Origin: Microbacterium sp. VKM Ac-2870
GTDB lineage: Bacteria > Actinomycetota > Actinomycetes > Actinomycetales > Microbacteriaceae
Length of the DNA stretch: 64,000 nucleotides
Direction of reading: 5' to 3'
Assembly (NCBI RefSeq): GCF_015350795.1
Contig: NZ_JADKSH010000002.1
Coordinates: 496,001-560,000, forward strand
Positions 1-59,378 of the stretch are shown here, one piece after another. The notes below the pieces were generated by a model. That model ran no database searches. It worked only from the letters and a program-made list of their open reading frames with translations, and was not told the origin of the DNA. The first letter of the stretch is position 1. Each line of letters opens with the position of its first letter. Made by a program: the position numbers and the translations under genes.

Positions 1-669
1 GATGCCGAGGTTGATGTGCGCGGGTGCGACGACCGACGGCTTCCCGTCGATCTCGGCGTAGGAGACGTTCTGGCTGGGGAACGCCTTGATCGCCTGGATG
101 AGAGCCCAGCCGATGAGGTGCGTGAAGCTGACCTTGCCGCCGCGCGTGCGAGACATGTGGTTGTTGATCACGATGCGGTTGTCGATCATGAGCTTCGCCG
201 GCACCGTGCGAACGCTCGTCGCGGTCGGGACGGTGAGCGACTCGTCCATGTTCGCCGCGAGTGTCTTGGGCATGCCGCGCAGAGGGGTGACCACGTCTTC
301 GCGAGCGGCGGCCACCGGCGTCGCCTGATCGGCGCTCGGCGCCTGGGCGGGCACCGGCTGCGGCGAGGCCGGGCGGGTCGTCGTGCGGGCGACGGGCTGG
401 GATCCGACCACGGGGATGGGAGCGGTCATCGGTCGGGGCTCCGCACTGGCCTGCGGTGTCGGGGTGGATGCGGGGGCGGATGCCGGGGTGGTTGCGCTGG
501 AGGCGGCATCCTGATGCGTCTTCTCGTACGCCTCCAGAACCGGCCACCAGGCCCGGTCGACCGCGTTGCGGTCCTTCGCGAACTGGTCGTACATCTCAGC
601 GACGAGCCATTCGTTGGCCCCGAACTCGCCGTCGCTCGAAGTCCCCACGCCGGTCACCTGACTGGACAC
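1..669 (-). CDS. kgd: Multifunctional 2-oxoglutarate metabolism enzyme, N-terminal part
   Basis: Only the first 223 codons lie in the window; the gene runs off the left edge. The start is GTG at 669, giving VSSQVTGVGTSSDGEFG and then ANEWLVAEMYDQF, the conserved lead of actinobacterial Kgd (2-oxoglutarate decarboxylase/dehydrogenase E1o fused to an E2-like domain). An Ala/Pro/Thr-rich linker (residues about 50-105) precedes TPLRGMPKTLAANMDES and RIVINNHMSRTRGGKVSFTH, the start of the E2-type acyltransferase domain. In this family the enzyme feeds the TCA cycle and is controlled by GarA/OdhI; that part is family knowledge. It is divergent from guaB1, with a 121-bp gap. Confidence 0.93.
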   Translation of the reverse strand, partial: MSSQVTGVGTSSDGEFGANEWLVAEMYDQFAKDRNAVDRAWWPVLEAYEKTHQDAASSATTPASAPASTPTPQASAEPRPMTAPIPVVGSQPVARTTTRPASPQPVPAQAPSADQATPVAAAREDVVTPLRGMPKTLAANMDESLTVPTATSVRTVPAKLMIDNRIVINNHMSRTRGGKVSFTHLIGWALIQAIKAFPSQNVSYAEIDGKPSVVAPAHINLGI

Positions 670-45115: not shown

Positions 45116-45135
45116 GCGGGGCCCGAAGGCCCCGC
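45116..45135 (-). terminator. Displaced native terminator of tRNA-Arg
   Basis: GCGGGGCC (45116-45123) and GGCCCCGC (45128-45135) pair around CGAA; on the minus strand they are followed by TTTT. The near-identical hairpin beside the intact tRNA at 59266 shows that this was the downstream region of the tRNA before integration. Confidence 0.75.
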
Positions 45136-45154
45136 GATCCCCGTGTCTTGCACG

Positions 45155-45199
45155 TGCCCCCGACAGGAATCGAACCTGCGACCTTTGGTACCGGAAACC
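45155..45199 (-). repeat. Left attachment-site copy (tRNA-Arg 3' fragment)
   Basis: 45 bp matching the 3' part of tRNA-Arg(CCG) at 59306-59350, 43 of 45 identical. The two differences (45165 and 45176) are partners in the T stem, so base pairing is kept. The last 20 bp (45180-45199, anticodon region) are identical and are the likely crossover core. No 5' half of a tRNA follows. Confidence 0.9.
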
Positions 45200-45311: not shown

Positions 45312-45336
45312 AAATGTTGTCAGAATGTTGTCACGG
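45312..45336 (+). repeat. Left arm-type repeat, two ATGTTGTCA units
   Basis: Two ATGTTGTCA units spaced 12 bp start to start, then CGG. 23 of 25 bases match the copy at 59232-59256, in the same orientation. Candidate integrase arm-binding sites. Confidence 0.75.
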
Positions 45337-45363: not shown

Positions 45364-46215
45364 CTACCGAGGACCGCGAGTGAAGACCGGGTCGAGGTAG
45401 GACGCGACGAGGGCGACCTGGTCCTCGAGATTCTCCTCGCATACACCCTGCAGACCTTCGCGACGTCGCCAGGCAGCCCACTTGGCTTGCCCCAGGTCGG
45501 CATAGCCTTCCAGGTGAGGGGAGACGGGCTCGAGTACGACACCTCGGTATGCGGCGACGGCGCGGGACGAGCGCAGAAGCTCGTCATCGTCGATGCCTCG
45601 GCGCGCGAGCTGGACGATGTCCACGTAGTCTCGCCACCTCGTGCTCGCGATGCCACGCTCGAGGATGGTCACGCCCTTCTCCGCGATTGTCGTCTCCGGG
45701 GCGTAGCCGAGCAGCTCGACCGGTTCCCCCAGCACCCGGTCGATCCGCACCAGCTGCGGCGCCGGCACGATGGGGTCGCCGGTGGTGACATCCCAGGCAA
45801 GAACTCCCCGCCATGGCCCGATGCTCGCCTTCACCCGAACTCTGAGGCCCGGGTAGTCGGCGTGCTCCCGGATGTCCTGCGCGGTGGTCGATGCGATGTC
45901 GAAGACGACCCCGTCATCGACGACAACCCGTGCGACATCGCCGATGACGTCACGGAGCTGCTCGGCAGTTACATCGACAGAGATGGCGTTGGAGTCGGCG
46001 TCCTTGGTCGGCCGGCGCACTCCGTACGCCGCGAGCAGGATGCCGCCCTTGAGGACGAAATCCGTGCCATGAACCGTGCGCGTCAGCCGCTCGAGGAAGG
46101 ACTCGATCAGGTGCCGGTTCAGGTATTCCTGGGTGGGCGTGGCGACGCCCGTTTTCGCAGACACCGATCGTGCGGCCGTCTGGAGGCGTCGGAAGATCTC
46201 CTCGCCATTGCTCAT
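45364..46215 (-). CDS. AbiEii-type nucleotidyltransferase toxin
   Basis: A 283-aa protein with the nucleotidyltransferase motif FVLKGGILLAAYGVRRPTKDADS, the GG...RPTxDxD form of AbiEii/AbiGii toxins, and the later EKGVTILERG and STRWRDYVDIVQLA motif. AbiEii uses nucleotides to modify cellular targets (for MenT relatives, tRNA) and causes bacteriostasis in phage abortive infection; family knowledge. It overlaps the AbiEi-like gene by 4 bp, the antitoxin coming first, as in characterised type IV systems. It is the first gene inside the left end of the island. Confidence 0.87.
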   Translation of the reverse strand: MSNGEEIFRRLQTAARSVSAKTGVATPTQEYLNRHLIESFLERLTRTVHGTDFVLKGGILLAAYGVRRPTKDADSNAISVDVTAEQLRDVIGDVARVVVDDGVVFDIASTTAQDIREHADYPGLRVRVKASIGPWRGVLAWDVTTGDPIVPAPQLVRIDRVLGEPVELLGYAPETTIAEKGVTILERGIASTRWRDYVDIVQLARRGIDDDELLRSSRAVAAYRGVVLEPVSPHLEGYADLGQAKWAAWRRREGLQGVCEENLEDQVALVASYLDPVFTRGPR

Positions 46216-46814
46216 GTGAGGTAGTCCAGCGCCTGCATGATCGGACGCTTTGCCCTCGGCAGACGCGTCGCCATCTCGATCAGGTCAGCGGCTTTGCCGC
46301 CACGACGGAGCCACTCCCTGAGGGCATCCCGGGCCAGCTCGTACCCGAGGTCGCCTCGCAATCGGAAGGCATCCGCGATCGACCGCTCCGCCGAGTACAG
46401 ACCGATTGTGAGGTCAGTGCCGGGGATCGACACTTGGTCGCGCCCAAGTTCGAACGTGCTGCGGTCGAAAGAGTGCCAGGCGATCGCCGCCGCTGTTGCA
46501 GGGAGGCGGGATCCGCGGGGGATGGCGACATCCAGCGCCGTCGGAACCGCGTCGGTCAGATCATGGTGCGCGAGCGCCGACATGAGGCAGATCGTCGACT
46601 CAGGGCGACGGGATGCCGCCTCGATCCAATCCCAGTCGGATGCCTCCGCATCGGCGGGGAGATAGATGCCTCGACCGATGCGTTCGTAGCGACCCTCACT
46701 CGCGGCCCGATAGAACGCGCTCCGCGACAGACCGTCCTGCGTGGTCGCGCGAGGTGGTATCGCCTTCACCCTCCACCGCCGATCTCCTGGGACAAAACGT
46801 CTACAGCTGAGCAT
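46212..46814 (-). CDS. AbiEi-type antitoxin
   Basis: A 200-aa protein with a winged helix N-terminus (ATTQDGLSRSAFYRAASEGRYERIGRGIYL) and the AbiEi C-terminal pattern (STICLMSALAHHDLTDAVP, DLTIGLYSAERSIADAFRLRGDLGYELARDAL). AbiEi represses its own promoter and neutralises AbiEii. The longest start is ATG 46814, but a near-perfect inverted repeat flanks a TATGCT -10 box at 46811-46816, so the real start may be GTG 46769 (VKAIPPRATTQ). It is transcribed ahead of the toxin with a 4-bp overlap. Confidence 0.85.
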   Translation of the reverse strand: MLSCRRFVPGDRRWRVKAIPPRATTQDGLSRSAFYRAASEGRYERIGRGIYLPADAEASDWDWIEAASRRPESTICLMSALAHHDLTDAVPTALDVAIPRGSRLPATAAAIAWHSFDRSTFELGRDQVSIPGTDLTIGLYSAERSIADAFRLRGDLGYELARDALREWLRRGGKAADLIEMATRLPRAKRPIMQALDYLT

Positions 46815-46854: not shown

Positions 46855-47322
46855 TTAGCTCGTTCTCTTGCTCAGGGCCTGCCGACTGAGCCCGGTGCGC
46901 GAGGACAGCGATGCCCACGATTCCCCTTCGCTGCGCAACTGCTTAATGAGCCGGTCGCGTTCACGGAGGAGGGCGTGCTCCTGTCGGTGAAGCTTCTCGA
47001 GCTCCCGCGATAGGGCCTTCAGGCGCTGAAGGCCGGCTGGCCTCGAATCGTGTTGTCTCCCCAACCGCGACGCGGGCCTAAGGGCAGGTGCGGGGGAGGG
47101 CTTCACGGGCTGACTCGGAGAGCGATCGTCGACGTCAGGATCGACTGGCGCGGGAGATAGCTCTTGGTCGACACGACCCGCCCCGGACAAGCCGAACGCG
47201 GATCCCTGCGTAGCGTCGGGTTGTCGCGTCGACACGTCGGGTCGGCTCGCGCCGGCGTTTGTGCTCAATGCGTGCGCGCCGCTATTTGCTGCAGTTTGCT
47301 TCGCCTTGCGACGCTTGGTCAT
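46855..47322 (-). CDS. Coiled-coil and helix-turn-helix protein
   Basis: A 155-aa protein of unknown family. Residues 1-95 are Ser/Pro/Ala/Gln-rich and probably disordered (TKRRKAKQTAANSG start). Residues about 96-135 form a heptad-rich helix (LQRLKALSRELEKLHRQEHALLRERDRLIKQL). The end, GESWASLSSRTGLSRQALSKRTS, is a clear helix-turn-helix like sigma region 4 or a transposase-type HTH. It is divergent from the giant ATPase gene with a 423-bp gap holding a hexamer tract, so it could regulate that gene. This is inference. Confidence 0.7.
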   Translation of the reverse strand: MTKRRKAKQTAANSGAHALSTNAGASRPDVSTRQPDATQGSAFGLSGAGRVDQELSPAPVDPDVDDRSPSQPVKPSPAPALRPASRLGRQHDSRPAGLQRLKALSRELEKLHRQEHALLRERDRLIKQLRSEGESWASLSSRTGLSRQALSKRTS

Positions 47323-47745
47323 GCAACAAAGTTGACGCGTGATCGCAGTATTTTCAACGCCCTCAGGACACCCACTTCAAAGTGCCTGCGTGCGTTGCTT
47401 CTCTTGTCTCTCTATCGACTCTTGGTCTTGGTCTTGGTCTTGGTCTTGGTCTTGGTCTCGTCGCGGTCGACCTCTCTTCCGGAGGCTCGATCGCGACGGT
47501 GGGGGCTTCAGTAGACGCGCGCTGATCGTTCATTCCCTCGGGCGGGCTAAACGAGCGGCGCGAAGTCAGGGCGAGCGACGTACGCGGGCGGGGTACATCG
47601 ATGCACGGATGGGGACCGGCCTACGGGCACAACACGAACGACGCCTTATCGCGCCAACATGGGTTGTGGTGTCGTGGCGCCTGCGCCCCCCGAGGTGGCT
47701 AGCGTAGGCATCGGATACGGATACGGAGAATCAAGGGGACAGCGG
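47323..47745. other. Divergent intergenic region between HTH protein and STAND-type ATPase
   Basis: 423 bp with no supported gene. It carries the hexamer tract at 47421-47456, a TTGAAA-like element near 47350 on the minus side and a purine-rich AAGGGGA site before ATG 47746. Several frames cross it, but none has coding bias or a family match. Confidence 0.6.
47421..47456 (+). repeat. (CTTGGT)6 hexanucleotide tandem repeat
   Basis: Six exact tandem copies of CTTGGT, unusual in a high-GC genome. It lies in the promoter region shared by the HTH gene and the STAND-type gene. Copy number change would alter spacing of regulatory elements rather than a reading frame. Confidence 0.9.
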
Positions 47746-50700
47746 ATGTCAAAGAGCGTCAATGGCCGCGACGCTGCTCCTCCTTTGGATGTGGGCGATT
47801 TGAATGTCGGTCAGGTCGGATCAAGCCCGTACGCGACGGGCGGCGGGGGGACCTCGTTTGCGCATCGGGTCGCTGCCGCGTATCTCGCAAGTTTGCTCAC
47901 GCGCAGTCGACGGGCTGAACTGGAACAGCAGGCGGCAGACTGCATCTCGTTTCAAACCGGGCCTACGCACCCGGTCGACGATCTGCTGGTCGCGTACTCG
48001 AGCGGAACTGTCGTCAGCACGTTGGCCATTGCCTGCAGGGCGACGCCGAACTGGGTTCGAAGCCACCAAGCCACTGTTGACCTCGTAAGATCCTTGCTGT
48101 CCGAGCTCGCAACTCATGATCGTGAGACTCATCGGGTCGCCGTCGCGATGTCCGGACGTTCGAGCCAGAGCGATCAACTCGCGAGGGTGTGCGAAATTGC
48201 TCGCGCGCACGCCGACGCGGATGCGTTCCATGCGTCTTTCGACGTCGACGGACGCTGGTCCGCGCCAGTCAGACGTCGCTACTCGCAGTTCTTGGACATG
48301 GTCGAGCTGGCTGTGGGAGCCCCACCGTCCGACCCTTCGATCGCGCAACGTGCGTGGCACTTGCTTTCGCGGTTGCGGGTTCTCCCATTTAGGGTTCAGG
48401 GTCACGACGACGCAGATCGGGCGTCTCTCGCGACATCTCTGGACGCTGTGGCATCGCAACAGAGCGACGGCGTTACTGTCAGGGACCGGCTCGAAGTTGA
48501 GGCCACTCGGTACGACGCGACCGGCGCGACCGTAGACCGGAACCTTCTCCGACGCGACCTTCATTCTGTCTTGGCCTCGCCGCTCACCCGAAGCACCGTC
48601 GCATGGGGTGTACTGGCCGAGCATCGAAGAGTAGCTACCGCCAGCGTGCGAAGCACCATTGGAGACGACACTTCTCCGAATGAGCCGTTGACGTTGGGCT
48701 TCTCCGATCGTCGCTCCCAGCTGGCCGCGCGGCTGGAGGCGAGCGCCGCGTCTGGCGGTGCCCTGCTGGTCGTCGGAGACTCAGGTGCAGGCAAGAGCGC
48801 GTTGGTGTTAACAACGGTCGCCAACCTCGAGGAGGCGAACGCCGACGAGTTCGAGGCGCTCGTCATCAACTTTCGCAGCTTGCCCGATACCGGGATGGAA
48901 CTTCGCGCCGCGCTCGGCATGTCCGTGCAGGACCTACTCGGCGAGCTGTCCGCACCCCGCCGACTTCTCGTCATCGACGCTGCAGACGCCGCGCTGGAGA
49001 GATCTTCGGGGCTTCTGAACGAGCTTGTCCACGCCGCCCGATCCGCAGGTGTCGGGGCTGTTGCGGTTACCGCTGCACCCGCCGCCGATTACGTGCAGGA
49101 ACAGCTCGCCACCGCTTACTCATCCGACGTTGACACCTTCGAGGTGGCGCCGCTCAGCGACGAGGACATGCGAGAGGTGTCTGAGCACTTTCCGCTGCTA
49201 CGGAATGTCCTGCGCGACCTGCCGGCGTCCTCATTGCTGCGACGGCCGGTGGTCCTCGATCTCCTCGCGCGAACCGAACTGCAGGTTGAACGCTCGCTGG
49301 GGGAATGGGAATGCCTTGAACTTGTGTGGCGCAAGATCGTGCGCGGAGAGGGGCGCATCGGGGCCGGCTCTTCAGAAGCGCGCGAACAGACCCTACTCGC
49401 GACCGCTGCTGCCGCACTGAACCTGCCCGCCCAGTCGCGCCCGGAGCTCGCCTTCGATTCAGCCGCTGTGGACCAGCTTCGCCGAGACCACCTCCTTGCC
49501 CCAGCCAGCCCGTATCGTCATCGACCCGAGTTTGCACACGACGAGATACGCCGCTACGCCACCGCGATCCTCCTCGTCCGTGCCGACACGCTCACCGACA
49601 CCCTTGAATCGGCAAACGCGCCGAGATGGGCGCTGTCCGCGGCCACGCTGGCTCTCAAGGGGCAGCTCGTGGCGCCCGGCGCACAGCCAGCCCAAGTCTT
49701 CAACGAGGCGGTGTGCCGCTTCCAAGGATTCGCCGACCGCCACGGTGCACGATGGGCGGACGTGCCCATCGAAGCTGTCACCCAGACTCCACGGGCCTAC
49801 GACTGTCTCAAGGCCGCCCTCACGGCCGACGCCCCTCTCTTATCGCTCACGGACGTCGTGCGAGTCATTCAACAACGCCATCAAGTCGCGGGACGGCTCG
49901 ACGCCGTAGCAGCGACGCCTGTGGTGCGGGTTCTTCTGGACGAGGAACAACCCTGGGATGTCTCGAAGGACTCGTTCCAGCTTCTCGTCAGCTGGCTGCA
50001 AGCACTGGTTCTCGCACAACTCCCGTCCGGGAATCTTCTCCGCGCGACACTCCGCGACCGGCTGCTCGCCTTCTGGGAACTTTATCCATCCCGTCAGGTG
50101 CCCGCACCCGATCCCAGCACCTACCTCGGTGCGCATCATCGTCGTCGGCGGCGAGCACTCGATTACCACGTCACCTCCGAGCAGTTTGTCGAGTCGCTGG
50201 CTCTCCTCGGCCCGGACGTGGACGAACGCGTCGAGGCGTGCCTAGTGGCCATCGCCGCCGACGCCCCCGCATTCCTTGCTCCAGCGGTGGACGAACCATT
50301 GAGCGCGAGGGCTCTTGCTCTTCACGACCCGGGGCTGCTCGCCGACCTGATCGAGGCGTACTACATCGACGACGACACGGAGGACTGGCACCTCGACCAC
50401 GGCGTACGACGCCACCACGGCCGCTGGACGGGCTTCGGGGGTCCGATGTTCGCCTACTACCTCGGGGGATTCTGGCCGCTGTTTCAGACGGCTCCATTCA
50501 CGACCTCGATCCGGGTGCTCAACAGAATCCTGAACCACGGCGCTGCGACGCGCGTCCAGACCCTCGCACGTCACCGCACGCACGGCGAGACTGACGAGGA
50601 CGACCGAGGCGTAATCATGAACCTGGACGGCGTCCAACGAACCTACGTCGGAGATAGCCACGTTTGGAGTTGGTATCGCGGCACTTCGGTCGGCCCGTAT

Positions 50701-52749
50701 CCGGGGATGAGCGCCCTTCTGGCAATGGAGCGGGTCGCCGAAGGGTGGCTCGATCAGGGGATACCACCAGGCCGAGTAGTCGATGTGTTGCTCGTGGGGT
50801 GTGACAACCTTGCCGTCCCTGGAATGCTCTATGGGCTCCTCGTGCGGCACATCGACAAGGTCGGTTCCGAACTCGACGCCTTCTTGGCCGAACCTGCGGT
50901 ATGGCAACTCGAGTTCGGACGAGTAACCAACGAGTATTCGGGACTGCGGGCGAAGACAGATGACCTCGCGAACAATGACCGCCGCCAATGGTCGCCCCGA
51001 GACGTCAGCGCTTGGCTGATCACCCACGGTGGGGAAGAGCGCGTAGCTGCCCTTAAGGCGCTCGGAGAGACGCTGATCCGAACCGGCGAGCGGCTCGGTC
51101 TCGCGGACGAGCGAACAAAAGGCTGGGCTGCCAGTCTCGACGCATCCCGCTACCAGATCACCCAGCAGGGGGATCAGTACTTTCTGCAGGTTGTACCACC
51201 TCCGGAAGTCATCGCGGCACAGCGGGAGATGGCTGCCTACCAAGAAGAAGTGCAGACGACGCTCCGACTCCAAAATCGCTACTGGGGTTCCGCGAAACAC
51301 GACCCTCACTTTCAGCCCCCGACCGTCGCCGAGATCGCCGATGACCTGAAGACAGCCAGAGAGCTACTGAAGGCCGACGGCCAACAACTGCCCAGCGACC
51401 GAATCGATGTCGTCGCCCAGGTTGTGAAGACCGCCGTCGCTCGCGCCGCAGAAGGTGAGGCAGCGGCGTTCGGGGATGAGTCGAAGTTCGCCACTCAAGT
51501 CGTGCTCGATGTGGCGCTTTCGTTTCGCACGTCGCGCAGCCAGCGTCACGAAGGGCAGTACTTCGACTTGGGCGCAGACCGCGCTGTCGCACTATCTCTT
51601 CCCGCATATCTGACCACCCCGCTCAGACCTCTTCTTCGCGAGGTTGGCGCAACCGATAGCGACGTCGCCGCAGCGGGACTGGCGATGGCGTCACGTGCAG
51701 CATCGGAGACCAGACTCTATCTCGCCAGAGGTTGCGACTCCGTCTGGAAGGCGCCGTGCGCGGGTAACCCGTGCGCACACGTGACAGCGGTGGGCTGGCT
51801 TCTAGAGAGCGCCCGCGATGCTGAGATCGGACCATGGAGCCAAAAGAAGCAACGCCCAACTCACAAGCGCATCAAGGGTGACGTGATCGCCCGCCTGCAG
51901 CGCATACCCGGCGATTCCGTACGCATCGAAGCACTCGACCCGGCAATCCGGGGTTTCGGCGCCGCCGCTCGATGGCAGCACTGCCGATCCGATGAGGCCG
52001 CAGCGGCACTGAGCGCTCTTCTTCACATTCAGCGGCACGCGATGATCGTTCATGAAGAAAAGGGTTGGACCGCCGACGATCGGGGTAGCCACACCCTCAT
52101 CGCCGCGCGCGCTCTCCTCGACGCCACTTCCGCAGCAACCGATGCAACGGCTGTTCTCGAATACCTCGACACGATTCGAGTCGACGCGGGCCTGATGACC
52201 AACTTCCTACACGGTCTCGCCGCGGCTGGCGCCGAAACCCAAGCCCGCGCCGACACCGTTGGCGAACTGTGGCCGCCGCTGTTCGCTCACGCGTCGGGCT
52301 ATACCAACGACGACAAGCGGACATTCCAAGACAGACATTGGGGCGACTGGGCGGCCGCCGCGTTACTACCGGACCCACTGACGTGGACGCAGGGCCTGTA
52401 CAACGAGGTATCTGGGGCGGCGATCGATTGGGTTCGGGCTGACGACCTCACAGGCCTGATCGACGGGTGGCTTCCAGCCGCCCGCGGGAGCATCAAGTGC
52501 GTTGACGCCCTGATCCGCATCCTTCGTCGGATGCCCGAACGCGATCAGGTGATCCGCGGCCTTCCGTGGGTGAGCGAACTCTGCGTTCAAGACAACCGCG
52601 CAAGCGTGAAGCAGACGTGGACATCGGACGAATGGCTGAAAGACGTACGAAGCGCCGCCGAAAAGCACGGGCTACTCGACCAGTGGCAAATGCTGGTCGA
52701 CGCGATGGTCGTCGCCGGCAACGAAGGCCTCGCCCCCTACAGCCGGTAG
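47746..52749 (+). CDS. Large STAND-type P-loop ATPase, candidate defence protein
   Basis: A 1667-aa protein with AAGGGGA 6 nt before ATG 47746 (the 47659 ATG adds 29 unsupported residues). N-terminus: GGGGTSFAHRVAAAYLASLL (about 32-51) and ISFQTGPTHPVDDLLVAYSS (about 68-87), which resemble the nuclease-like domain (Cap4/Mrr-type) found at the start of such giant NTPases; the usual QxK is ACR here. Walker A is GDSGAGKS (344-351), Walker B LLVIDAAD (407-414). A long helical C-terminus (about 600-1667) with Cys/His-rich CAGNPCAHV near 1385 has no known name and may sense phage. It contains TTA codons. The next gene is a TIR protein, 133 bp downstream. Confidence 0.8.
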   Translation: MSKSVNGRDAAPPLDVGDLNVGQVGSSPYATGGGGTSFAHRVAAAYLASLLTRSRRAELEQQAADCISFQTGPTHPVDDLLVAYSSGTVVSTLAIACRATPNWVRSHQATVDLVRSLLSELATHDRETHRVAVAMSGRSSQSDQLARVCEIARAHADADAFHASFDVDGRWSAPVRRRYSQFLDMVELAVGAPPSDPSIAQRAWHLLSRLRVLPFRVQGHDDADRASLATSLDAVASQQSDGVTVRDRLEVEATRYDATGATVDRNLLRRDLHSVLASPLTRSTVAWGVLAEHRRVATASVRSTIGDDTSPNEPLTLGFSDRRSQLAARLEASAASGGALLVVGDSGAGKSALVLTTVANLEEANADEFEALVINFRSLPDTGMELRAALGMSVQDLLGELSAPRRLLVIDAADAALERSSGLLNELVHAARSAGVGAVAVTAAPAADYVQEQLATAYSSDVDTFEVAPLSDEDMREVSEHFPLLRNVLRDLPASSLLRRPVVLDLLARTELQVERSLGEWECLELVWRKIVRGEGRIGAGSSEAREQTLLATAAAALNLPAQSRPELAFDSAAVDQLRRDHLLAPASPYRHRPEFAHDEIRRYATAILLVRADTLTDTLESANAPRWALSAATLALKGQLVAPGAQPAQVFNEAVCRFQGFADRHGARWADVPIEAVTQTPRAYDCLKAALTADAPLLSLTDVVRVIQQRHQVAGRLDAVAATPVVRVLLDEEQPWDVSKDSFQLLVSWLQALVLAQLPSGNLLRATLRDRLLAFWELYPSRQVPAPDPSTYLGAHHRRRRRALDYHVTSEQFVESLALLGPDVDERVEACLVAIAADAPAFLAPAVDEPLSARALALHDPGLLADLIEAYYIDDDTEDWHLDHGVRRHHGRWTGFGGPMFAYYLGGFWPLFQTAPFTTSIRVLNRILNHGAATRVQTLARHRTHGETDEDDRGVIMNLDGVQRTYVGDSHVWSWYRGTSVGPYPGMSALLAMERVAEGWLDQGIPPGRVVDVLLVGCDNLAVPGMLYGLLVRHIDKVGSELDAFLAEPAVWQLEFGRVTNEYSGLRAKTDDLANNDRRQWSPRDVSAWLITHGGEERVAALKALGETLIRTGERLGLADERTKGWAASLDASRYQITQQGDQYFLQVVPPPEVIAAQREMAAYQEEVQTTLRLQNRYWGSAKHDPHFQPPTVAEIADDLKTARELLKADGQQLPSDRIDVVAQVVKTAVARAAEGEAAAFGDESKFATQVVLDVALSFRTSRSQRHEGQYFDLGADRAVALSLPAYLTTPLRPLLREVGATDSDVAAAGLAMASRAASETRLYLARGCDSVWKAPCAGNPCAHVTAVGWLLESARDAEIGPWSQKKQRPTHKRIKGDVIARLQRIPGDSVRIEALDPAIRGFGAAARWQHCRSDEAAAALSALLHIQRHAMIVHEEKGWTADDRGSHTLIAARALLDATSAATDATAVLEYLDTIRVDAGLMTNFLHGLAAAGAETQARADTVGELWPPLFAHASGYTNDDKRTFQDRHWGDWAAAALLPDPLTWTQGLYNEVSGAAIDWVRADDLTGLIDGWLPAARGSIKCVDALIRILRRMPERDQVIRGLPWVSELCVQDNRASVKQTWTSDEWLKDVRSAAEKHGLLDQWQMLVDAMVVAGNEGLAPYSR

Positions 52750-52882
52750 CTTCCACTTCACCTATTCCGGCGCCGCCTCCGGCCGAGCTCATGGCGCCTG
52801 AAGACGTTGCGCGAGTGAGGATCGAGTGATTCGGCGGGCTGGCTAGTCGGCCGATACATTGAGGCACGGAGTTAGGAGAGGC

Positions 52883-53584
52883 ATGAACCAAGCCGAGGTC
52901 GAGGCGCTGCTCACCCAGCGTGGCATTGAGTACGACATCAAGGAGCAGGAACACTGCACGCAGATTCGCGCCAAGTCCGGAGAGGTCGTCAACTTCTTCC
53001 ACACGGGGACAGTTCAAACGCAGGGGAAGAGGACGCCGCTTCTCGATGAGCTGCAGGCATGGAAAGACGGCGCACAGCCGGAACTCGGCGTCGGCGAACA
53101 GGTCGGTATTCAACCGACGCCTGGTCCCAACAAGAATGTCTTTGTCGTGTACGGCCACGACGCTGCGGCTACGGACGCGTTGGAACTGCTCCTCCGCAAG
53201 ATGGGGTTGAAGCCGATTATCCTGGCGAACCTGCCGGCGGCAGGCGACACAGTCATCGAGAAGCTTGAGCGGTACCTTCGGCAGTCCGGCGACGTCGGGT
53301 ACGCCTGCGTCCTCTTGACCCCCGACGACATCGGGCATGTGAAGTCTGATGCGTCAAGGGCGCAGGCCCGCGCACGACAAAATGTCATCCTGGAACTGGG
53401 GATGGTCCTCGCGAACCTTGGACGGAAGCGTGTCGCGATTCTCTATCAAGAGTCGGTTGAGAAGCCCAGCGATATCCACGGTCTGCTTTACCTTCCTTTC
53501 AAGGATAAAATCGACGAAGTGAAGGCGAAGCTGTTCAAAGAACTTCAAGCCGCGGGATATACGCCGGACCCTGAAGCGCTCTAG
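52883..53584 (+). CDS. TIR-like nucleotide-binding protein (CAP12/PycTIR type)
   Basis: A 233-aa protein with AGGAGAG just before ATG 52883. Residues 1-70 are a small alpha/beta domain (MNQAEVEALLTQRGIEYDI, NFFHTGTVQTQGKR). The C-terminal part, NVFVVYGHDAAATDAL (about 85-100), VLLTPDDIGH (143-152) and RARQNVILELGMVLANLGRKRV (163-184) is the PF10137-type TIR. The Glu in VILELG (about 171) matches the NADase catalytic position. Such domains degrade NAD or signal in CBASS, Pycsar and related defence. The N-terminal domain may bind nucleic acid or ligand. It follows the STAND-type gene with a 133-bp gap. Confidence 0.87.
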   Translation: MNQAEVEALLTQRGIEYDIKEQEHCTQIRAKSGEVVNFFHTGTVQTQGKRTPLLDELQAWKDGAQPELGVGEQVGIQPTPGPNKNVFVVYGHDAAATDALELLLRKMGLKPIILANLPAAGDTVIEKLERYLRQSGDVGYACVLLTPDDIGHVKSDASRAQARARQNVILELGMVLANLGRKRVAILYQESVEKPSDIHGLLYLPFKDKIDEVKAKLFKELQAAGYTPDPEAL

Positions 53585-54485: not shown

Positions 54486-54926
54486 GTGGCCTCGCGCGTG
54501 GTTGACAAGGTCGTCTGCTACGTCGTCGACGGGCAGCGCCTTCTCGTGTTTACTCACCTTTCACATGCCCTGACGGTGACGGGGGTGCAGGTACCGGCAG
54601 GCACCATCGAGGTGGGCGAGGCCCCCGCTGCCGCTGCGATACGGGAGACTCTCGAGGAGACCGGCCACTTAGCCCGTGTGATCCGTGAGCTCGGCTCCGC
54701 CACCTACGATCTCTCGCCGATGAGGGACGAGATAGCGCGGCGCACGTTCTTCCAGCTTGAGCTGGTTGAGAAGGCCCCCGAGCGATGGACCTCCGGAGAG
54801 ATGAACCCTTCGACGGCTGGGCCTGTAGAGGAATGGGAGTGCTGGTGGATGCCCGTGACGCAAGCTCATGTCTTGGCCGCCGGGCTCGGCGCTCTCAGCG
54901 GGCGAATCGTCCCTCCGCCCGCATAG
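54486..54926 (+). CDS. Nudix hydrolase
   Basis: A 146-aa protein with the Nudix box GTIEVGEAPAAAAIRETLEE followed by TG (GX5EX7REUXEEXGU satisfied). The remainder has VVDGQRLLVFTHL and RRTFFQLELVEKAPERWTSGE. Nudix enzymes hydrolyse nucleoside diphosphates linked to other groups; the substrate is unknown. A leaderless promoter supports GTG 54486. Confidence 0.87.
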   Translation: MASRVVDKVVCYVVDGQRLLVFTHLSHALTVTGVQVPAGTIEVGEAPAAAAIRETLEETGHLARVIRELGSATYDLSPMRDEIARRTFFQLELVEKAPERWTSGEMNPSTAGPVEEWECWWMPVTQAHVLAAGLGALSGRIVPPPA

Positions 54927-54986: not shown

Positions 54987-55481
54987 ATGAGCTTCGTGAT
55001 CCGGAATCCATCGGCGGCTGACGCCTCGGCACTCGCGGATCTCCACGTCGCTACGTGGAGAGAGGCATACTCTCACTTGCTCCCTGATGACTACTTTTCG
55101 GAGGAGTACGTGTCGCGTCGCCACCGAATGTGGGACCAAGTGCTGACCGAAACACGCCCGGACATGCGGGTGCGGGTGGCGGTCAACGAAGGATCGATCA
55201 TCGGCTTCGCCTGGGCAGGTCCGGGGATCGGCGTCGATGCTGACGAGCCACCCAGAGACCGTCAGCTTTACGCGATCTACGTGTTGTCAGCTCACTACGG
55301 AAGCGGCGTCGGCCAGGCCCTCCTCGACGCGGCACTCGAAGACGGGCCCGCGATGTTGTGGGTGGCGAAAGAGAACCCCAGGGCGACCGCGTTCTATCGG
55401 CGCAACGGCTTCATCTTCGACGGCGCCGAACAGACCGACCCACATGCGCCGCTCATCACCGACGCACGCATGATCCGCTAA
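54987..55481 (+). CDS. GNAT family N-acetyltransferase
   Basis: A 164-aa acetyltransferase. It starts MSFVIRNPSAADASALADLHVATWREAYSHLLPDDYFS and contains the acetyl-CoA loop LSAHYGSGVGQALLDAAL (RxxGxG/A-like) and VAKENPRATAFYRRNGFIFDGA. The substrate is not determined. ATG 54987 is the natural start for the family, and the gene follows the Nudix gene by 60 bp. No further clue to its role in the island. Confidence 0.87.
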   Translation: MSFVIRNPSAADASALADLHVATWREAYSHLLPDDYFSEEYVSRRHRMWDQVLTETRPDMRVRVAVNEGSIIGFAWAGPGIGVDADEPPRDRQLYAIYVLSAHYGSGVGQALLDAALEDGPAMLWVAKENPRATAFYRRNGFIFDGAEQTDPHAPLITDARMIR

Positions 55482-56978: not shown

Positions 56979-57629
56979 GTGAATTCCTATACGCGGCCGT
57001 CTGTCGATTCACCGGTGTTTCGAGACACTGATGGTCAGGTCATTGACTACGGCAACCGTTGGGATGGGTCGCCGCCGGACGATACCTACTCTGTGGATAC
57101 TCACCTGGAGCGTTTCGCGCCGGTCCACGTCATCGCTGAGGCTCTTATCGCGTACCTTCGTGAGAACTACGACGTTGCTGTCGAGGAAGGGGAGGCTGTA
57201 GCGGGTGATCTTCTACATCCCGCGTACCACGACGTGGTGCGCGCGGTTCGGGTGAGACCGAATGATCCCGCGTGCGCGTCCCTGACGATGGTTTTCACGG
57301 CGTACCCGGGGATCTACCTGCACGCTGGACTCCTCAACGACTTCCACTATCCGGTCTGTGGTTGCGACGCTTGCGACTCGAACTGGCAAGCGGAAGCGGA
57401 TGACCTGGAGCGGCAAGTGCTCGCCGTCGCGGCGGGGAATTATCGCGAGACGCTCGAGCGGCGAGAGGGAGACCCGTGGGTGGGATACGCGTTCACGCAC
57501 ACCGACGGTGCGAGCTCGGGAGGAGCCCGCGAGCCCGGCATATCGAGCGAGCGTTTCGACGCCGCGGAGTCGATCCTGAAGGCGTCGCCAGGATGGTCGA
57601 GGTGGCCCTCACCTGCGTCGACATCGTGA
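56979..57629 (+). CDS. DUF6226-like protein
   Basis: A 216-aa protein starting MNSYTRPSVDSPVFRDTDGQ. It has DDTYSVDTHLERFAPVHVIAEALIAYLRENYDV and a central LTMVFTAYPGIYLHAGLLNDFHYPVCGCDACD, then a long helix and a low-complexity end. The layout (a YSxxxxPERFxPL-type start and a CxCDxC cluster) recalls DUF6226, found in Actinomycetota without a known function. The Cys cluster could bind metal. GTG 56979 is the start. Confidence 0.65.
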   Translation: MNSYTRPSVDSPVFRDTDGQVIDYGNRWDGSPPDDTYSVDTHLERFAPVHVIAEALIAYLRENYDVAVEEGEAVAGDLLHPAYHDVVRAVRVRPNDPACASLTMVFTAYPGIYLHAGLLNDFHYPVCGCDACDSNWQAEADDLERQVLAVAAGNYRETLERREGDPWVGYAFTHTDGASSGGAREPGISSERFDAAESILKASPGWSRWPSPASTS

Positions 57630-58152: not shown

Positions 58153-59262
58153 ATGGGCAGCGTCTACCCCTACACGACGGCCGGCGGCGCGAAGCGGTAC
58201 CGGATCAGCTATCGGCGGCCCGACAGGGGGCAAACCACCGAGCGTGGGTTCACGACGAAGCGCGATGCGGAAGCACGTCTCGCGGAAGTCGAAGTATCGA
58301 AGAACCGCGGCGAGTACGTCGACCCGGCCAGCGCGGAAGTCACGATCGCGACGCTCGGCAAAGAGTGGTTGCGGCAGCGCGAGGGTGTCTTGAAGCCGTC
58401 GTCGATACGGCCGCTGCAGTCGGCGTGGTCGAAGCACGTGGAGCCGAGGTGGGGTGCCCGGAAGATCGGCGGCATCCGTCACTCGGAGGTCCAGACGTGG
58501 GTGTCGACGATCACCGGCGGGTCCACGACCATCCGGCGTGCCCACGGAGTCCTCGCCGGCATCCTCGACACTGCCGTCCAGGACCGCCGCTTGGTACGCA
58601 ACGTCGCCCGCGACATCTCTTTCCCGCCGAAAGTCCGCACCGCGCGCAGGCACTACCTCGATCACGCGCAGGTGCAAGCGCTCGCCGACCACGCCCGGCA
58701 CTCCACCCTCGTTCTCTTCCTCGCCTACACGGGTCTCCGGTGGGGCGAGGCGACCGCGCTCCGCGTCCGCCACGTCGACACGCTCAGGCGGCGCGTGAAG
58801 GTGGAAGAGAACGCCGTCCTCGTCTCGGCGGAAGTCCACGTCGGGTCGCCGAAGACCCACCGATCGAGGTCTGTCCCGTACCCGGAGTTCCTCGCCCTCC
58901 CACTCGCGCAACTCGCCGAAGGAAAGACGCGTGACGAGCTGCTGTTCGGCGACGGCACCAGCCACGTCAAGATCCCCGCGTCACGCAACGGATGGTTCAC
59001 CGCGGCGGTCCTCGCCGCGCAGACCGCCGACCCCGACTTTCCGAGGATCACCCCGCACGACCTCCGCCACACGGCCGCGTCGCTCGCGGTGCAGGCCGGC
59101 GCGCATGTGAAATCGGTGCAGCGAATGCTCGGTCACGCGTCCGCCGCGATGACTCTCGACGTCTACGCGGACCTCTTCGAGGACGATCTCGACGCCGTCG
59201 CTGCCGCCCTCGATCAGGCGAAGCGCTCCGCAAATGTTGTCAATATGTTGTCACGGGACTAA
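58153..59262 (+). CDS. int: Tyrosine recombinase, island integrase
   Basis: A 369-aa phage-type integrase starting MGSVYPYTTAGGAKRYRISYRR (AP2-like arm-binding domain), with a SAM-like core-binding domain (VTIATLGKEWLRQREGVLKPSS). Its catalytic domain carries R in TGLRWGEATALR, HDLRHTAASLAV (HxxR), LGHASAAMTLDVYADLF (His and Tyr nucleophile). ATG 58153 is preceded by GGGGAGCAG; the frame from 57661 is not supported. It sits beside tRNA-Arg and ends with the arm-like repeat coding NVVNMLSRD. No excisionase is visible. Confidence 0.93.
   Translation: MGSVYPYTTAGGAKRYRISYRRPDRGQTTERGFTTKRDAEARLAEVEVSKNRGEYVDPASAEVTIATLGKEWLRQREGVLKPSSIRPLQSAWSKHVEPRWGARKIGGIRHSEVQTWVSTITGGSTTIRRAHGVLAGILDTAVQDRRLVRNVARDISFPPKVRTARRHYLDHAQVQALADHARHSTLVLFLAYTGLRWGEATALRVRHVDTLRRRVKVEENAVLVSAEVHVGSPKTHRSRSVPYPEFLALPLAQLAEGKTRDELLFGDGTSHVKIPASRNGWFTAAVLAAQTADPDFPRITPHDLRHTAASLAVQAGAHVKSVQRMLGHASAAMTLDVYADLFEDDLDAVAAALDQAKRSANVVNMLSRD
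59232..59256 (+). repeat. Right arm-type repeat within the end of int
   Basis: The two ATGTTGTCA units are also the last codons of the integrase gene. They match the left copy at 45312-45336 at 23 of 25 bases, in the same orientation. Confidence 0.75.
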
Positions 59263-59265
59263 AGA

Positions 59266-59287
59266 GGCGGGGCCCGAAGGCCCCGCC
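59266..59287 (-). terminator. Bidirectional terminator between int and tRNA-Arg
   Basis: GGCGGGGCC (59266-59274) and GGCCCCGCC (59279-59287) pair around CGAA. It lies directly after the int stop and after the 3' end of the minus-strand tRNA, and mirrors the hairpin at 45116-45135. Confidence 0.75.
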
Positions 59288-59305
59288 ATCCCAGTGTTTT
59301 CTAGG

Positions 59306-59378
59306 TGCCCCCGACTGGAATCGAACCAGCGACCTTTGGTACCGGAAACCAACGCTCTATCCCCTGAGCTACGGAGGC
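59306..59378 (-). tRNA. tRNA-Arg (anticodon CCG)
   Basis: 73 nt that fold into a full cloverleaf: acceptor GCCTCCG with CGGGGGC plus discriminator A, D arm GCTC/GAGC, anticodon stem TTGGT/ACCAA around TTCCGGT (anticodon CCG), T arm GCTGG-TTCGATT-CCAGT (with one G-T closing pair). CCA is not encoded. It is intact because the island supplies the 3' half. Confidence 0.95.

Follow-up and report, generated by a model that had tools for sequence, protein, structure and literature searches.

Three neighbouring genes in an island at tRNA-Arg

We analysed a 64,000-nucleotide (nt) stretch of the genome of Microbacterium sp. VKM Ac-2870 (NCBI RefSeq assembly GCF_015350795.1, 743-kb contig NZ_JADKSH010000002.1, positions 496,001 to 560,000 of the forward strand; hereafter the window, position 1 being its first letter). 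At issue are three neighbouring genes, for a small helix-turn-helix (HTH)-type protein, a giant STAND-like ATPase and a TIR protein, which a sequence-only reading had taken for one undescribed defence cluster. A check of the open reading frames (ORFs) bore out all three of them, with their coordinates, strands and the 133-bp gap between the ATPase stop codon and the ATG of the co-oriented TIR gene (Table 1). The three genes sit in a 14.2-kb element with 84-nt repeats at tRNA-Arg and a tyrosine integrase. The reading that we consider likely, developed below, is that this element is a hitchhiker island of the iOriT type that carries independent cargo and would be mobilized in trans by MOBF elements.

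The left border of the island is supported by three relatives in which tRNA-Arg stands without this island, since window positions 45154-45199 are identical to the 3' part of their tRNA-Arg (46-47 bp, 100%). The 25-nt ATGTTGTCA-type repeats found near both ends are a possible integrase arm site. In a further relative (G174; G, L and C numbers are our handles for genomes, loci and contigs), the same tRNA-Arg holds another island of ~5.3 kb (L073:7105-12409), whose integrase region is 86% identical and which contains a same-family HTH gene together with the motif treated below, plus a nucleotidyltransferase-like gene (by eye); the genus search gave no ATPase or TIR match in G174. A query with a TrwC-type relaxase gave no match in the window (best E = 0.41), and a Pfam scan of 10 island ORFs revealed no relaxase, the small ORFs lying outside the scan for other relaxase classes.

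Table 1. Features of the island and of its proteins (window positions unless residues are stated)
Feature	Position	Strand	Description
HTH-type ORF	46855-47322	-	155 aa; small coiled-coil/HTH-like protein
STAND-like ATPase ORF	47746-52749	+	1667 aa; P-loop about 344-351; long C-terminal part
Nuclease-like N-terminal domain of the ATPase	residues about 25-275		altered motif
ATPase module	47613-52748	+	DNA block common to G277 and M. hibisci, flanks unrelated
TIR ORF	ATG 52883 to 53584	+	233 aa
TIR protein layout	alpha-beta domain 1-61; TIR about 82-233 (residues)		RxRQNVxLE motif conserved
Putative origin of transfer	47372-47398	-	GCAACGCACGCAGG + hairpin CACTTTGAAGTG; first base 76 nt before HTH start codon
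attL repeat	45116-45199		84-nt direct repeat with 59267-59350, 90% identical
attR repeat	59267-59350		overlaps 3' part of tRNA-Arg(ccg) 59304-59378 (-)
Tyrosine integrase	58153-59262	+	Pfam Phage_integrase 7.9e-21
ATGTTGTCA-type direct repeat near attL	45312-45336	+	25 nt, 92% to 59232-59256
Partner repeat near attR	59232-59256	+	pairs with 45312-45336
AbiEii-type nucleotidyltransferase toxin, cargo	45364-46215	-	Pfam AbiEii 3.3e-29; PADLOC AbiEii 5.5e-70
AbiEi-type antitoxin, cargo	46212-46814	-	PADLOC AbiEi 1.6e-46
NUDIX hydrolase, cargo	54486-54926	+	Pfam
GNAT acetyltransferase, cargo	54987-55481	+	Pfam
DUF6226 protein, cargo	56979-57629	+	Pfam

The ATPase and TIR genes consistently occur apart

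The region from 38 to 62 kb of the window was compared by blastn with five relative loci. Homology to G277 was confined to 47613-52748 (88% identity) and homology to M. hibisci (G102), which has an 87% identical ATPase, to 47614-52778 (86% DNA identity), that is, to the ATPase module, while homology to G255 was confined to the TIR gene (52875-53582; 78% identical as DNA, 90% as protein). G024 displayed no homology and G142 a single 89-nt stretch. The ATPase ORF is open for 29 codons 5' of the ATG used here (window 47659-47745), so that an upstream ATG would give a protein of 1696 aa; the shared block begins still 5' of these open codons. It had been proposed that the HTH gene shares a control region with the ATPase gene. 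This was not confirmed: the DNA shared with the two closest ATPase loci begins at ~47613 and leaves out the HTH gene and its leader, and the HTH gene has a conserved leader of its own.

We next compared the occurrence of the three genes across 295 genomes of the genus. Counting the own genome each time, the ATPase was found in six (one a fragment with stops, G288, E = 9e-4), relatives of the TIR protein in 17, with only that of G255 close, and HTH relatives in 28. A TIR match was lacking in all five other ATPase genomes, as was an ATPase match in all 16 other TIR genomes. The ATPase was likewise found in four of 347 order genomes, including the own, and the ATPase or its N-terminal domain in eight plasmid records. 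From genus, order and plasmids we assembled 12 further loci that carry the ATPase or its core (L047-L050, L061-L064, L067, L070-L072; five are among the eight plasmid records), with flanks of ~6-8 kb where the contig allowed (L072 stops soon after the gene), and a relative of this TIR protein was present in none of them. The 12 do not include the G288 fragment, L065 and L066, which have the N-terminal domain only, or hit H6, the region of which was not retrieved. The ATPase was absent from all six TIR loci tested (G255 and five viral contigs).

Relatives of the TIR protein were found in 1130 plasmid records (six with a query coverage of 80% or more; neighbourhoods were viewed for a minority only), in four phage records and in five viral contigs, two of them near-identical. 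One viral contig has the TIR gene between HsdM- and HsdR-like genes (by eye), and one E. coli phage has it beside a DNA polymerase gene. ATPase relatives were found neither in viral contigs (tblastn) nor in phage records, and no HTH relative was found in plasmid records at E<=1e-3. Because the ATPase and TIR genes consistently occur apart, in the genus search, in the blastn comparison and across the 12 loci, we reject the view that the three genes form a single system; consistent occurrence of either gene alone is also what the sequence-only reading had named as refuting its proposal. Taken together, these comparisons indicate that the three genes were brought together by transport rather than by a shared function, and that the ATPase and TIR genes are probably independent anti-virus genes, with phage defence as their presumed role.

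The ATPase is STAND-like and its family little described

The designation of the giant protein as a STAND-type ATPase holds in so far as a P-loop is present, but every Pfam match falls below its curated cut-off: NACHT, for instance, scores 19 bits against a cut-off of 26.7. Matches to Avs4 lie further still below (16 bits against 1500 for the NCBIfam model; 9.9 bits in PADLOC) and fall in the NTPase region and, in the relative at L050, further on. No further Avs model matched the ATPase at E<=0.1, and a profile of the whole ATPase found no relevant match, and no Avs structure, among PDB sequences. PADLOC PDC-M54A matches residues 59-445 (E = 1.4e-11), and matches three of five relatives scanned, but this similarity covers the first quarter of the protein only. 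Its partner PDC-M54B was found in none of seven genomes, which is uninformative given that 14 control genomes had none either. The ATPase thus resembles Avs/AVAST proteins in having an exchangeable N-terminal effector slot, a P-loop NTPase and a very long C-terminal part, but differs from them in its Avs4 score, in matching no Avs structure and in its altered nuclease motif. We regard it as a STAND protein whose family has been little described.

The N-terminus had been called nuclease-like, and it is the motif that speaks for this. Nucleases of the PD-(D/E)xK type carry a D..QxK motif, where the window ATPase reads D..AxR. Across 14 aligned N-terminal domains the Asp pair (D78, D79) is invariant, whereas the Q-x-K position reads QVK or QIK in two distant members (G341, G384) and A/G-x-R in the other 12, that of the window included. 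The window domain had no Pfam match, a profile search of PDB sequences with it found no relevant match, and AlphaFold modelling of the N-terminus (two sequences) was unusable (predicted local distance difference test score, pLDDT, 34); the fold is thereby unconfirmed, which counts against our interpretation. We infer that the domain is derived from a nuclease whose active site has been lost or changed. Its position and the invariant Asp pair, together with the Q-x-K kept in two distant relatives, would also suit a conventional suicide nuclease of the Avs kind whose PD-(D/E)xK domain is functional; with A/G-x-R prevailing in the alignment and no nuclease family match for the ATPase, we regard that alternative as doubtful.

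On a plasmid of Streptomyces sp. NBC_00525 (L062:5290-10206), residues 282-1667 have a 60% identical counterpart, and a trypsin-like protease replaces residues 1-281. The N-terminal domain in turn occurs on other proteins (L065:7947-9641 and L066:7017-8951), one of which is annotated as a PQQ-binding-like beta-propeller repeat protein. Since trypsin replaces the domain in one case and the domain is found on other proteins in the others, these comparisons indicate that the N-terminus of the ATPase is an exchangeable effector slot. A trypco2 gene lies upstream of the trypsin-STAND gene; according to one study (PMC7159879), Trypco2 is found next to trypsin-like peptidases in conflict systems of bacteria, and another describes trypsin fusions as recurring in Avs and other systems (PMC12799240). 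In two relatives (L050, L063) the nuclease-like domain is preceded by a further N-terminal extension, which in L063 has a Csa3 match (E = 5e-5), and a SIR2-type-looking gene (L071:5230-7029) is convergent to the relative in G341 (by eye).

The TIR protein matches a single-gene candidate

The assignment of the TIR domain to the CAP12/PycTIR type was upheld by Pfam (CAP12-PCTIR_TIR, E = 4.7e-33) and by PADLOC PDC-S35 (E = 3e-76). The latter profile is matched at near full length, with residues 11-240 of the 241-aa ORF aligned to profile positions 8-239 of 245 and no difference seen; we take the 'S' in its name to denote a single-gene candidate. No literature naming PDC-S35 or PDC-M54 was found in a search whose coverage excluded preprints. 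The RxRQNVxLE motif aligns with RDNVVFEFG of Cap12, and its E171, presumably the catalytic residue, is invariant in all seven aligned sequences (two viral rows being near-identical). The model of the protein (pLDDT 73) has TIR-STING 7un8 as its best structural match (Z 15.1, root-mean-square deviation (rmsd) 2.4, 128 residues), followed by SPARTA TIR-APAZ structures (Z about 11-12). The protein therefore shares its TIR fold with TIR-STING (Cap12) and SPARTA TIR-APAZ, but has a small N-terminal domain in place of a STING or APAZ part. For that domain, a Foldseek match to RNase H3 (E = 1.6e-3, rmsd 17) gives only a hint of a TBP-like fold; the 50 VIA-align rows listed for the model cover residues from 79 on only.

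The earlier statement that the genes match neither Thoeris, CBASS, Pycsar nor a known Avs operon agrees with these searches: neither a CBASS/Pycsar nucleotide cyclase nor a Thoeris ThsA partner (SIR2/TM-SLOG) was found among the 10 island ORFs scanned, the smallest ORFs again lying outside the scan, and the Avs matches are those under cut-off described above.

The HTH gene goes with a hairpin motif that mostly precedes relaxase genes

The HTH protein has no Pfam match above cut-off, and owes its name to a C-terminus that looks HTH-like. At 23 of 25 distinct places the gene is preceded by GCAATGCACGCAGGCACT plus a short hairpin, with some variation. These places are part of the 35 found in the genus search; L085 repeats L042, and a spurious near-match at L031 was scored as a miss. 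With at most one mismatch allowed, a pattern search returned 75 places for the motif, spread over 56 of 198 genomes of the genus, and none for the reversed pattern. The motif stands before a TrwC-type relaxase gene at 50 of these places, before an HTH gene at 19 and before neither at six (two inside an integrase gene, one before a broken HTH frame and three orphans). Seventy places were classed by a same-strand tblastn match no more than 900 nt downstream (49 relaxase, 15 HTH, six neither), and the other five were read separately (four HTH and one relaxase, apparently split); the 72 classification rows comprise these 70 places, one repeat (L201 = L156) and G277, which is outside the 198 genomes. 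The exact 15-nt core was present in four of 297 order genomes, all four of them Microbacterium. The stem CAC/GTG is formed in 62 of 67 distinct sequences, compared to 15 of 67 for a control GTG at like offsets 60 nt on, and the fourth stem pair among the 62 is C-G in 16 and T-A in 15. No earlier description of the motif was found in the literature searched, from which subscription papers and preprints were excluded.

Just upstream of the motif, the window has a TCTTGG-type tandem repeat (47420-47461; purine-rich on the HTH strand), and purine-rich tracts occupy a like position in several other HTH loci. An integrase relative lies within 5 kb of seven of 22 HTH genes, a count made without a control and not used as support.

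The relaxase next to the motif is TrwC (8.4e-30 and 1e-27 in the two scanned, and also at the copy on contig C11 of the own genome). No TrwC-type relaxase lies within any of 21 HTH loci (mostly 20 kb). At the level of whole genomes, a relaxase at E<=1e-100 is present in 17 of 23 genomes with the HTH gene versus 43 of 175 others (Fisher p = 5e-6), or in 16 of 22 when the own genome is excluded (p = 1.3e-5), by tests that ignore relatedness and with a threshold picked after the list was seen; at the search's own threshold of 1e-20 the relaxase is present in 18 of 23 versus 62 of 175 (p = 1e-4). Among the 43 genomes in which the relaxase (E<=1e-100) is present and the HTH gene absent, 34 have the motif; among the 132 with neither gene, two do.

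These findings bear on what the motif is. It lies ~43-127 nt before the start codon, in the orientation of the gene, and conservation of the HTH leader reaches right up to the ATG; it could therefore be a promoter, operator or RNA leader shared by relaxase and HTH genes, in which case the island might not be mobilizable. The motif is kept, however, in most relaxase genomes that lack the HTH gene, and is therefore not kept there as an HTH operator; its distance from the relaxase start varies (about 43, 67 and 115-127 nt); and an origin of transfer (oriT) is usually built in this way, with a hairpin flanking an invariant block close to a relaxase gene. We consequently judge the promoter or leader alternative improbable. 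Instead, we read the motif as probably an oriT, and the island as probably mobilizable although it has no TrwC-type relaxase, with nicking and transfer as the presumed consequences. The HTH gene is read as belonging with the putative oriT rather than with the ATPase, and not as a defence subunit. The idea that the HTH protein regulates the ATPase was rejected, given that its leader motif stands mostly before relaxase genes elsewhere and lies outside the ATPase homology block. We also dropped the idea that the ATPase gene lies in a leading region, first to enter a recipient, because the orientation of the motif relative to the ATPase gene is reversed between the window and G277.

A possible helper in the same genome

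Contig C11 of the own genome carries a TrwC relaxase, a VirB4-like ATPase, a VirD4-type coupling protein and ParA, with a two-mismatch copy of the motif directly before the relaxase gene. Its Pfam TrwC and TraG-D_C matches are above their cut-offs. Since the own genome has no second copy of the HTH gene, C11 is without one. The circular plasmid NZ_CP049254.1 of M. amylolyticum displays the same arrangement of TrwC-type relaxase, type IV secretion system genes and motif. C11 is thus a possible helper for the island, as judged from its gene content. The M. amylolyticum plasmid is typed as non-mobilizable in PLSDB, and its relaxase match (L216, 1-1661) is covered by no listed gene. At the G024 ATPase locus, an apparently split relaxase gene with the motif lies ~5.4-6.2 kb beyond the ATPase gene (L049:18115-18908).

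Discussion

The interpretation of this element as a mobilizable hitchhiker island places it in a known kind, as iOriT elements and oriT mimicry by mobilizable islands are treated in a published study (PMC11389934). The island resembles such elements in having an integrase and att sites at a tRNA gene and in having no TrwC-type relaxase; its oriT-like site may match the motif of a conjugative helper, given the 50 of 75 places before relaxase genes and the divergent copy on C11. It differs in its motif, which within the order genomes searched was confined to Microbacterium and which is linked to an HTH gene missing from the helper contig.

Several observations weigh against this interpretation. 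The motif is missing at two of the 25 HTH places examined. Its fourth stem position is T-T in 24 of the 62 sequences, C-A in two and T-C in one, with a three-pair stem or no score in four. Six of the 23 HTH genomes are without a relaxase match at 1e-100, and in nine of the 43 relaxase genomes without the HTH gene no copy of the motif with at most one mismatch was found, although divergent copies such as that on C11 exist. The caveats attached to the Fisher tests, and the placement of the motif ahead of a gene in that gene's orientation, count on the same side. On C11, the VirB4-like and MobF matches are under their NCBIfam cut-offs (45.8 of 325 bits and 92.6 of 100 bits, respectively), and the contig could be either a plasmid or integrated. 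An HTH gene adjoins the ATPase gene in two of five full-length genus loci (the window and G277), albeit in opposite relative orientation. Finally, the motif only presumably resembles known MOBF nic sites.

A true two- or three-gene system, in which the ATPase senses phage, the TIR protein acts as effector in trans and the HTH protein regulates, would account for the co-orientation and short gap of the ATPase and TIR genes, for an altered nuclease-like motif in need of an outside effector and for the joint presence of all three genes in this strain, but is very hard to sustain when, outside this strain, the TIR and ATPase genes are missing from each other's tested loci and from each other's genomes in the genus search, when TIR relatives occur in 1130 plasmid records, four phage records and five viral contigs against eight plasmid records for the ATPase or its N-terminal domain, and when the HTH gene is associated with the putative transfer motif. 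Of the defence cluster originally proposed there remain two credible defence genes out of three, carried by an island; that they make up one undescribed system is unsupported.

Under the hitchhiker interpretation, the relaxase of a helper would nick the excised island at the hairpin site, and the helper's type IV secretion system would export it; what is observed here is the linkage of motif and relaxase gene. The HTH protein may bind beside the site as an accessory factor or autoregulator. As cargo, the island would carry genes that work independently of one another: the AbiE toxin-antitoxin pair, a STAND sensor-effector and a TIR effector, the latter two each encoded by a single gene. The STAND protein would sense a phage component with its C-terminal part and oligomerise with nucleoside triphosphate, and the oligomer would activate the N-terminal domain, whose exchange is observed. 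The TIR protein would cleave nicotinamide adenine dinucleotide once triggered, consistent with its fold and the conservation of its motif. More tentatively, such hijacking may be genus-wide, with relaxase-less islands carrying a copy of a MOBF oriT and a dedicated HTH gene as their own relaxosome adaptor, together with defence genes that would protect the helper's host.

This case shows that neighbours in an island can be mistaken for one system. In place of that system we propose a short DNA signal, seen in this genus only, that stands beside MOBF relaxase genes and beside HTH genes in relaxase-less islands. The ATPase also offers a domain swap made by nature, in which cores that are 60% identical carry either a trypsin or an altered nuclease; this swap is useful for asking what STAND sensors require of their effectors. 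If the motif is an oriT, relaxase-less islands of Microbacterium would be recognisable by a 15-nt search, and their helpers could be named.

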